A stretch of DNA of 64,000 nt, taken from assembly GCF_003261635.1 (NCBI RefSeq), contig NZ_QFXK01000033.1, forward strand, positions 310,001 to 374,000, in the 5' to 3' direction. The notes below the pieces were generated by a model. That model was not told the origin of the DNA, searched no databases, and was given only the letters and a program-made list of their open reading frames with translations. Within the stretch, counting starts at the first letter, position 1, and every line of letters begins with the position of its first letter. The position numbers and the translations under genes are program-made. This document shows positions 58,722 to 61,829 of this stretch, in pieces. The DNA comes from Kribbella monticola (lineage in GTDB: Bacteria > Actinomycetota > Actinomycetes > Propionibacteriales > Kribbellaceae).

Positions 58722-58868
58722 GGGTTCCGTTGACCGTGACGGAACGCGACGGCTACGGTTCGGGGGACAACCTGCGGTGCCATGAGGGAAACCGGTGAAA
58801 GTCCGGTACGGCCGCGCCACTGTGAGCGAGCTCCGGCTCGTGAGTCAGGACGCTCGGGCACCAGCAGC
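58722..58868 (+). promoter_or_regulatory. Cobalamin (B12) riboswitch
   Basis: The conserved core is plain: GGTGCC, GGGAAACCGGTGAAAGTCC, then GCCGCGCCACTGTGAG with the B12 box, and GTCAGGACGCTCGGGCACC closing the distal arm. The upstream dyad GTTCCGT/ACGGAAC is part of or next to the P1 region. It lies 39 bp before cbtB, so adenosylcobalamin should shut off the cobalt uptake genes. Confidence 0.95.
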
Positions 58869-58906
58869 CTTTCGAAGGGGACGCGCACTTCCCTAGGAGG
58901 TTCCAG

Positions 58907-59110
58907 ATGACCGCACCTGTTTCCACTTCATCGGTCGCCGTACCGGCTCTTTCGCCGCGGCTGCTGGCGTTCGCCCTGCTCACCGTCGGCCTCGCGCTGA
59001 TGCTGGCCTACCTGGTGGCGTTCGACCAGGGCGCGCTGTCCCACTCGGGCATGTACCTGCACGAGCTGATGCACGACGGCCGTCACCTGCTCGGCGTTCC
59101 CTGCCACTAG
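58907..59110 (+). CDS. cbtB: CbtB, cobalt transporter small subunit
   Basis: 67 residues: one membrane helix (LLAFALLTVGLALMLAYLVAF) and a His-rich end with HSGMYLHELMHDGRHLLGVPCH, which carries five His and a Cys for metal capture. This is the expected size and shape of CbtB, the partner of CbtA in cobalt uptake. AGGAGG lies 6 nt before the ATG. Expression is under the cobalamin riboswitch just upstream. Confidence 0.92.
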   Translation: MTAPVSTSSVAVPALSPRLLAFALLTVGLALMLAYLVAFDQGALSHSGMYLHELMHDGRHLLGVPCH

Positions 59111-59176
59111 CAGTCCTGTCTTCACTTCTCACCACACCTCGGTCCTGACCAGGGCCTTCGGAAAGACAGGTCTGCC

Positions 59177-59953
59177 ATGCGCACCTTCGGATCTCTGCTG
59201 GTGCGCGGACTGATCGTCGGACTCTTCGCCGGCCTGCTGGCCGGAACCTTCGCCTTCGTCACGGGCGAGCCGCGGATCGACTCCGCGATCGCGATCGAAG
59301 AGGCCAACGCGTCCGCGCACTCCCACGACGCCGGCTCCGGCTCGGGCCACCACGAGCACGCGGCCGAGGAAGAACCCCTCGTCAGCCGTGACGGACAGCG
59401 CTTCGGCCTCTTCCTCGCCGCGTCCCTGTACGGCGTGGCGCTGGGCGGCATCTTCGCCGTCGGCTTCACCCTGCTCCGCCGTCGGCTGCGGACCAGCAGC
59501 GACTCGTACGCCGCCCTCGGGCTGGCCGCCGCGGGGTACGCCGGCATCGTCCTCGTGCCGTTCTTCAAGTACCCGCCGAATCCACCGGCGGTCGGCGATC
59601 CCGACACGATCACCCAGCGAACGGTGACCTACCTGCTCACGCTGGTGATCGGGCTGCTCGCGGTCTGGGCCGGCGTCGCGGCGTCCCGCTGGGTGCAGCG
59701 GTTCGGCGACCTGCCGTGGATCCGGTTGGCCGGTGGCGGCGCCGCCTTGGTGTTGACTGTCGTCGTGGCCTATCTGATCCTGCCGAAGATCAACGAGGTG
59801 CCTGACACCTTCCCGGCGACGCTGCTGTGGCAGTTCCGGCTCGCCTCCCTCGGAACCCAGACGGTCCTGTGGACGCTGCTCGGCATCGGGTTCGCCGCGG
59901 CGATCGACCGCCGTACGCCGGTGGCCGCTGCGCCGAAGGTGGTTGCCGCTTGA
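59177..59953 (+). CDS. cbtA: CbtA, cobalt transporter large subunit
   Basis: 258 residues with about six helices. After helix 1 comes an exposed loop with HSHDAGSGSGHHEH, which is rich in His and typical of CbtA. VPFFKYPPNPPAVGDPDTI is the most conserved family block. With CbtB it imports cobalt for B12 synthesis. The gene follows cbtB by 66 bp, and its TGA overlaps the next start. Confidence 0.92.
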   Translation: MRTFGSLLVRGLIVGLFAGLLAGTFAFVTGEPRIDSAIAIEEANASAHSHDAGSGSGHHEHAAEEEPLVSRDGQRFGLFLAASLYGVALGGIFAVGFTLLRRRLRTSSDSYAALGLAAAGYAGIVLVPFFKYPPNPPAVGDPDTITQRTVTYLLTLVIGLLAVWAGVAASRWVQRFGDLPWIRLAGGGAALVLTVVVAYLILPKINEVPDTFPATLLWQFRLASLGTQTVLWTLLGIGFAAAIDRRTPVAAAPKVVAA

Positions 59954-60504
59954 CCGCGCTGACCCTGGTCGCCCACGCGCTCACCCCGGCGTTGCGAGGA
60001 CTAGTCCTCGGTGGCCCGGCCGAGCCGGACGCGACGAGCCTCGCAGCGGCTCGCGAGTTGAAGCTGGACGCGGACGAGGCGTACGCCGGACCGGAACCCG
60101 CTGCGGTGAAGACCGCGGAAGCGTTCGGCCTGACCGCGCGGATCGAGCCGGCACTCCGCGATCGCGAGTACGGCGACTGGTCCGGGCGGAGTCTGGAAGA
60201 GCTGCTGTCGGCGGAGCCCCAGCAAGTCGCCGGCTGGCTTGAACACCCGCACACCGCCCCGCCCGGCGGTGAGAGCGCCAACGACGTGCTCACGCGGGTC
60301 GCCGACTGGTTGGGCGACCTGGCGGGAGCTGGAGCCGACGACCGCCGGAATGTGGTCGCGGTGGTGCACCCGGCCGTCGTACGGGCTGCTGTGCTGTATG
60401 TGCTCGACGCGCCGGTGGAATCGCTCCGGCACGTCGACGTGCGGCCGCTCTCGGTGATCCGGTTGTCCGCTCACGGCGGGTCATGGTCACTCGTCTTCGG
60501 ATAA
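59950..60504 (+). CDS. Histidine phosphatase-like protein with altered active site
   Basis: 184 residues. TTG start overlapping cbtA by 4 bp (TTGA). The fold is that of the phosphoglycerate mutase/CobC superfamily: YAGPEPAAVKTAEAFG, LRDREYGDWSGRSLEEL and VVAVVHPAVVRAAVLY. The N-terminal catalytic motif, normally LxRHGxT, reads LVAHALT: the His is kept but the Arg and Gly are Ala. Coupling to cbtAB suggests a role in cobalamin metabolism such as CobC-type dephosphorylation, but the missing Arg may mean a binding or altered function. Confidence 0.8.
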   Translation: MTALTLVAHALTPALRGLVLGGPAEPDATSLAAARELKLDADEAYAGPEPAAVKTAEAFGLTARIEPALRDREYGDWSGRSLEELLSAEPQQVAGWLEHPHTAPPGGESANDVLTRVADWLGDLAGAGADDRRNVVAVVHPAVVRAAVLYVLDAPVESLRHVDVRPLSVIRLSAHGGSWSLVFG

Positions 60505-60581: not shown

Positions 60582-61829
60582 ATGGCGGACGAGTTCGAGC
60601 TGCTGGTCCGGCGGGTGCAGGAGCTGCCCGCCGAAGTAGCGGCGTACGAGGTGCGTTCGTACTTCGATTCGCTCGCGCCCGGCGATGCTTCGCGACTCGC
60701 GGAGACGCGGCCGGACGAGGTCGGCTCGCTCGACGGGGCGCCGGCTGCGCTTCGGTACCGCGCGAACCATCTGCGGCTGGTCGACGCTCGCGATCGGCTG
60801 CGAGACGCTGGTCCTCTCGCGGAGCATGAGCGGAAGCGGCTGGAGACCCTCGACGAGCTGTTGACACCGGTGGCGCACGCCGAGGTAGATGCCTCGGGCA
60901 AGGTTGTCGAAGTGCTCCGGGATCGGCAGTTCCTCTCACTTCAGCCGGAAGGGCAGGGGCGGGCGGTCGAGGTGCTGGGGGAGCTCGATCGGGCGCGCAA
61001 CGTCGCCGTACTGGTTCCCGGGATGGGGAACAGCCTGGAAACGCTGCGTGGGCAGGTGGATCGGGCCGATCTGATCCGGCACGAGGCCGGACCCGGGACG
61101 GCCGCGGTGCTGTGGCTCGACTACGACTCGCCGCAAGGGCTGCGGGAGGCGGCGAGCAAGCGGGCGGCGATCCAGGCCGGACCGGCCCTGCGGCGGTTCA
61201 TGGCCGGGCTGGAGACGGAGAGGTTGCCAGAGGCAAGTGTCACGCTGGTCGGGCACAGCTACGGAAGCGATGTGGTCGGCCAGGGGATGTTGCAAGGCGT
61301 CCGGGTGGATCGGGTCGTGCTCACCGGCAGCCCGGGAATCACCAAATTCGTCAACCAGGCTTCGGATTTCGTGCCACCTCCGACCAGACTGTACGTCGAA
61401 CGCGCGCCCGGCGACTACGTGTCCTACAGCGAGTGGCACGGGCCGGACCCGGCCACCTTCCCGGATGCGATCCGGATGGCGACGAACGACGAGACGGTCT
61501 CGGTGCACTGGCACAACGAGTACTACCGGCAGAACAGCGAGGCGTTACGCAACATCGGCCGCGTCGTGCGCGGCGACCTCGCACACATCACCACCACCGA
61601 CACCACGCGCGCGCATGAGTCCAAGCTCGCGCTCGGCATCTCCTGGGCCGACCCGTTGAACAACGCGGCCGCAGTCGCCAGCAAGGTGTATGACGGAGTC
61701 GTGTCCCTCACCAAACGCAACCACACCTCAGCCGCTGGGGTCGCGACAGACGGCAGCCGCCCGAGCCCGGTCGTTCGGGGGACGGCTGTTCCTGGGGCTG
61801 GGCGGCGGAGTGAAGGGCAGGGGCGATGA
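60582..61829 (+). CDS. DUF1023 alpha/beta hydrolase
   Basis: 415 residues. The N-terminal 135 residues are helical (LRDAGPLAEHERKRLETLDEL), and DUF1023 follows: VAVLVPGMGNSLETL, VLWLDYDSPQGL, and the elbow VGHSYGSDVVGQG with its Ser. An Asp is in YVERAPGDYVSY and a His in SVHWHNEYY or AHITTTD. This hydrolase family is restricted largely to actinobacteria, with unknown substrates. No signal peptide. Its stop overlaps the next start (ATGA). Confidence 0.85.
   Translation: MADEFELLVRRVQELPAEVAAYEVRSYFDSLAPGDASRLAETRPDEVGSLDGAPAALRYRANHLRLVDARDRLRDAGPLAEHERKRLETLDELLTPVAHAEVDASGKVVEVLRDRQFLSLQPEGQGRAVEVLGELDRARNVAVLVPGMGNSLETLRGQVDRADLIRHEAGPGTAAVLWLDYDSPQGLREAASKRAAIQAGPALRRFMAGLETERLPEASVTLVGHSYGSDVVGQGMLQGVRVDRVVLTGSPGITKFVNQASDFVPPPTRLYVERAPGDYVSYSEWHGPDPATFPDAIRMATNDETVSVHWHNEYYRQNSEALRNIGRVVRGDLAHITTTDTTRAHESKLALGISWADPLNNAAAVASKVYDGVVSLTKRNHTSAAGVATDGSRPSPVVRGTAVPGAGRRSEGQGR

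Follow-up and report, generated by a model that had tools for sequence, protein, structure and literature searches.

What does a protein with the fold of a histidine phosphatase do beside a predicted cobalt transporter when it carries no RHG motif? The question is raised by a forward-strand operon in the window, a 64,000-nucleotide stretch of Kribbella monticola DNA. In this operon, a cobalamin riboswitch aptamer core (58787-58853) lies upstream of cbtB (58907-59110; 67 residues) and cbtA (59177-59953; 258 residues, with a His-rich loop), which encode the predicted subunits of CbtAB, a system presented as a predicted cobalt transporter in PMC2667541. The initial annotation's reading of these three elements is borne out by matches to RF00174 (38.7 bits in cmscan, gathering threshold 31.5; model positions 47-167 of 189), PF09489 (43.1 bits, cut-off 27) and PF09490 (261.5 bits, cut-off 30.7); the aptamer scores above threshold upstream of the operon and the CbtB and CbtA domains stand in tandem, as expected of RF00174 and CbtAB, while CbtB scores 19.1 against TIGR02459, under the cut-off of 64.4. 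The third gene (59950-60504; 184 residues) starts with TTG at 59950 and overlaps the TGA stop of cbtA (59951-59953) in the sequence TTGA, the coupling that had been described. Its downstream neighbour (60582-61829) encodes an Abhydrolase_8 protein (PF06259), a homologue of which still adjoins the third gene at a locus of the same genus that has no adjacent cbtBA (L338).

Inspection of the third protein places it in branch 1 of the histidine phosphatase superfamily by both fold and Pfam domain. It matches PF00300 (His_Phos_1) with 92.1 bits (4.8e-26; cut-off 21.7), the alignment beginning only at model position 38 and leaving the RHG-holding part of the model unmatched. An AlphaFold2 model built from 30 aligned sequences reached a mean pLDDT of 94.9 and a pTM of 0.90; its best structural match is the Hydrogenobacter phosphoserine phosphatase 4ij6 (Z 23.3, rmsd 2.0, 182 residues), followed by PhoE (1h2e, Z 22.2) and by CobC structures (Z about 21). 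These matches to solved structures indicate that the predicted fold is complete and that the change lies in the pocket. We therefore predict with high confidence a full histidine-phosphatase fold, in agreement with the initial annotation. Compared with branch 1 enzymes such as 4ij5/4ij6 and PhoE, to which the model aligns at full length with Z scores of 22 to 23, the third protein shares the GGES, G.W and second-His regions, but lacks both the RHG Arg and the second pocket Arg and has Asp in place of the acidic Glu. PspB of Hydrogenobacter is reported to be an inactive partner subunit, although a literature search turned up no entry on it.

Alignment columns locate these changes precisely. LVAHALT (residues 6-12; 59965-59985) replaces LxRHGxT, as had been recognized from the outset, with A8 at the Arg position and H9 at that of the nucleophile. 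A51 (60100-60102) occupies the position of the second phosphate-binding Arg, which we take to be R62 in phosphoglycerate-mutase numbering; D71 (60160-60162) stands at the catalytic Glu, and H140 (60367-60369), within VVHPA, at the second catalytic His. The initial annotation was thus right about the RHG Arg and understated the loss, which extends to the second Arg and the Glu; its view that a single catalytic His survives does not hold, since both are present. All five residues are invariant in the 30 genus orthologues compared (30/30 each for A8, H9 and A51), indicating that the altered motif is neither chance nor a sequencing error. Two His and two Arg are described in PMC10218301 as required for activity in all histidine phosphatases; of this quartet, the third protein retains both His and neither Arg. 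The same genome encodes a separate relative with an intact RHG motif (L002, of the RNase H/acid-phosphatase type), and RHG chemistry is therefore available elsewhere in the cell.

The incomplete pocket extends well beyond Kribbella. Relatives of the third protein were collected by a pattern scan of named genomes, which gave 253 relatives and 80 retained loci from Actinomycetota, Alpha- and Gammaproteobacteria and Acidobacteriota, and by a profile (HMM) search, built from 15 members, of 394 genomes of the class, which placed 113 sites in 93 genomes at 113.8 bits or above, the next score being 110.2; the corresponding gap in a Pseudomonadota sample lay between 138.9 and 112.0 bits. Absences in these genome searches are soft, as only part of the first-look candidates were scored (eight per genome in the class sample). 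Together, the loci from the family searches and one pattern scan yielded 217 unique rows, which are not a random sample, and motif states were read from HMMER alignments after dropping 5 of the 217 that lacked a column (likewise 5 of 14 ordinary relatives). Among the remaining 212 rows, none holds the complete set of Arg, His, Arg, Glu or Asp, and His, whereas all nine aligned ordinary relatives read RHREH. SHRDH is the commonest state (68 rows), followed by AHADH (31 rows, from the window's genus together with a few related forms) and CHRDH (29 rows). Neither His survives in Streptomyces-type rows, where states such as SPRGE and AARDE are found, and other lineages have likewise lost one or both of them; even so, the remainder of the protein has stayed conserved. 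The first (RHG) Arg is kept in six rows, yet these have Ala at the second Arg and Asp at the second His. Orthologues with intact RHG chemistry, which could have marked the window's copy as a local lapse, were thus not seen among these rows; conservation of the AHA form across cbtAB operons is confined to the genus and its few relatives, and what is general is the incomplete catalytic set. Elsewhere in the protein, 216 of the 217 rows retain E108 of GGES and 209 retain D163.

A circular definition of the family was ruled out, as family rows (at least 113.3 bits) and rows with a complete quartet (at most 99.2 bits) remain apart when the catalytic columns of the model are masked. In a tree of 94 rows, some of them long, the 12 ordinary rows are grouped together by a branch supported at 86/74; with support this modest, a single origin is likely for the entire set, in which we count the f19 clade that keeps the Arg. 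The nearest relatives with a whole catalytic set (L303-L308, L324 and L325) themselves carry RHA (RHAP or RHAV) rather than RHG; those of L324 and L325 adjoin cobS and cobT, respectively, and are probably alpha-ribazole phosphatases.

These catalytic states bear on the main rival to a non-catalytic function, so ranked because both His survive in this genus: the third protein may still be an enzyme with an altered site, in which H9 would act as nucleophile with help from H140 and D71, the loss of Arg changing the substrate, perhaps to phosphohistidine, to a thioester or to a phosphate linked to a corrinoid. The intact predicted fold and the invariance of H9, D71 and H140 in all 30 orthologues are consistent with this proposal, as are the 97 of 212 rows in the SHRDH and CHRDH states, where the first Arg is the sole residue missing provided that Asp can serve in place of Glu. 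Against it stand the lineages that have lost one or both His and kept the rest of the protein, together with the description of the quartet as required throughout the superfamily (PMC10218301), and on balance we regard continued catalysis as unlikely.

A second reading is that the pocket is simply eroding, and that the protein is an alpha-ribazole phosphatase of the CobC type in the course of being lost. The alpha-ribazole phosphatase model TIGR03162 is among the nearest curated models and is matched by all 30 members of our alignment A4, the CobC structures (6nru and 6e4b, the adenosylcobalamin/alpha-ribazole phosphatase) share the fold and the B12 context, and complete-site relatives are found next to cobS and cobT. 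The third protein nevertheless scores 61.4 bits against an equivalog cut-off of 162.9, has no RHG, and belongs to a family that is linked to cobalt uptake and found also at nitrile-hydratase loci. Moreover, dN/dS for the third gene is 0.216 (30 genus sequences), alongside 0.245 for CbtA (24 sequences, from those of the 30 loci with a tblastn match in a short flank), and the gene is kept in 36 of the 38 genomes of the genus. Among four genomes in which it no longer lies beside cbtBA (G012, G018, G026 and G034), dN/dS is 0.18, and for the single pair G009/G024 it is 0.37. A dN/dS near 0.2 and an invariant pocket rule out a pseudogene, so that the suspicion of mere decay is refuted for this genus, where all 30 sequences keep Ala-His and selection persists without cbtBA. 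With incomplete catalytic sets recurring across three phyla, a decaying CobC appears very improbable.

The genomic company of the family points to cobalt. In the class sample, CbtA scores over its cut-off in 138 of the 394 genomes and CobN is found in 207. The family lies within 2 kb of CbtA at 60 of its 113 places, and in 37 of these it follows CbtA immediately in the same orientation; five places are about 15 kb away, and at the remaining 48 no CbtA was seen up to 20 kb away on the contig. Many of the latter are a Streptomyces paralogue, some of them near argC and an acetyltransferase-like gene. This second, Streptomyces-type paralogue (AARDE, both His lost) accounts for L110, L111, L113, L115 and other places far from CbtA; in L111 it adjoins the acetyltransferase-like gene, about 4 kb from argC. 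At some of the neighbourhoods described here, gene calls came from a simple script, which made several errors and overlooked some histidine-phosphatase genes. Judging from named loci, the bacterial family f21 corresponds to Streptomycetaceae, and here the gene is present in 36 of 39 genomes and CbtA in 23, with 14 genomes holding family members without CbtA. Outside f21, all 57 carrier genomes encode CbtA, against 115 of 355 genomes overall (Fisher, 6e-34), a further 58 genomes having CbtA only and 240 neither. CobN is encoded in 92 of the 93 carriers, which places the family among B12 makers, and restricting the comparison to the 170 CobN-positive genomes outside f21 leaves CbtA in 57 of 57 carriers and in 57 of 113 others. 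At one locus (L106:3821-7131, genome G398), a family member is flanked on one side by a 2-methylcitrate synthase gene and on the other by a cobalamin riboswitch that precedes a methylenetetrahydrofolate reductase gene.

The same company is kept in other phyla and on plasmids. CbtA passes its cut-off in 46 of 349 Pseudomonadota genomes and the family is present in 19, every one of which also has CbtA; in one Pseudomonadota genome (G568), the family gene overlaps cobF. Three plasmid copies, from Pantoea, Agrobacterium and Aminobacter, follow cbtBA with nitrile-hydratase genes nearby, assumed to be of the cobalt type, and the pockets of these nitrile-hydratase-linked copies read CQAES, SSAEA and CQADS. 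No annotated histidine phosphatase was found at the cbtBA plasmid loci of Caballeronia, Komagataeibacter and Streptomyces NBC_01558. A B12-specific phosphatase as the family-wide role is weakened by the nitrile-hydratase neighbours, and these, together with the separate RHG relative in the window's genome, leave the suggested link to adenosylcobalamin phosphate unsupported. In the Leptospira cob clusters, PMC4758666 describes cbtBA together with an additional histidine-phosphatase gene, hps_1; the likeness to our third gene lies in gene company, catalytic residues being no part of that description.

Such close linkage could also arise if the third protein were an accessory CbtAB subunit, such as a gate or regulator that docks on CbtA in the cytoplasm. 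The 37 places immediately downstream of CbtA agree with this, as does the pattern in Pseudomonadota, where the gene lies within 1 kb of 9 of the 11 top CbtA places (more than 240 bits) and of none of the 37 others. Among 80 CbtA loci examined, a family member is present in 35, and histidine phosphatases of other kinds were found in none. Within the genus, where CbtA occurs in 35 of 38 genomes, the distribution speaks against a subunit role. Two genomes (G009 and G024) retain the gene, its AHADH pocket intact, and encode CobN, and a genome search, in which absences are soft, found no CbtA in either. The four genomes with a displaced gene, under purifying selection there, have another CbtA elsewhere, and no riboswitch was found at the displaced gene in any of them. 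The gene can thus outlive CbtA and is therefore not an obligatory CbtAB subunit, a role that the two carriers rule out for the genus; conversely, the 58 genomes outside f21 with CbtA alone indicate that the gene is dispensable for CbtA. Taken together, these observations make an accessory transporter subunit improbable.

Other genes also adjoin cbtAB. Genome G002, of the same genus, has another CbtA type and no RHG-less gene; the third gene of its alternative riboswitch-cbtB-cbtA operon (L344:4402-5085) encodes instead a protein with a weak match to the 2Fe-2S domain FhuF_C (19.8 bits, just short of the cut-off of 20.5). A second type of cbtAB neighbour, 34-49% identical among Bradyrhizobium, Shinella and Methylocapsa loci (L063:3862-4527, L064:3306-3902 and L327:4613-5248), begins with what resembles a signal peptide, contains conserved Cys and His residues and ends in a segment that looks membrane-embedded. 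The L063 and L064 proteins gave no Pfam match and the L327 protein no NCBIfam match; the neighbour is possibly an exported cobalt-handling protein.

A fold under selection, a quartet that is never complete, losses that vary by lineage and the company of cobalt genes together fit a binding pseudoenzyme. We accordingly favour, at a probability of roughly 0.6, the reading that the third gene represents a distinct, widespread pseudophosphatase family that acts by binding in cobalt uptake or use. The initial annotation's alternatives of a new phosphatase variant or a binding protein therefore both stand, with binding favoured over an altered enzyme. The protein would no longer hydrolyse phosphomonoesters and would instead bind a ligand or partner; because of its gene company, it would act in the cytoplasmic cobalt economy, between import by CbtAB and use in B12 or in a cobalt enzyme such as nitrile hydratase. 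When adenosylcobalamin is plentiful, the riboswitch would repress the third gene together with the transporter. Against a full pseudoenzyme, both His are kept in the window's protein and most rows of the family keep one Arg, which leaves some room for weak or altered catalysis.

What would be bound is a matter of greater speculation. To judge by its residues, the Arg-free pocket of this genus (H9, H140 and D71) might suit a cation such as Co2+, and a bolder version of the binding reading, which we consider doubtful, holds that a phosphate pocket has become a cation pocket in a cytosolic cobalt chaperone or sensor, which would receive Co2+ from CbtAB and serve CobN or nitrile hydratase, its set of ligands differing from lineage to lineage. 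The proposal does not hold for Streptomyces or for the nitrile-hydratase clade, both of which have lost the His, and the ligands are not conserved across the family; because other lineages have lost them, we do not take it as the base case.

No account of an RHG-less histidine phosphatase of cbtAB operons was found in the open-licence papers searched, and several records of the plasmid copies annotate the gene as 'histidine phosphatase family protein'. How cobalt, once imported, is passed on to B12 synthesis or to cobalt enzymes is little understood. The family member is small and soluble and is encoded by many bacteria that can be grown in culture; a conserved cbtAB partner unable to use the textbook chemistry would mislead annotation, and would point to a missing component of cobalt handling.
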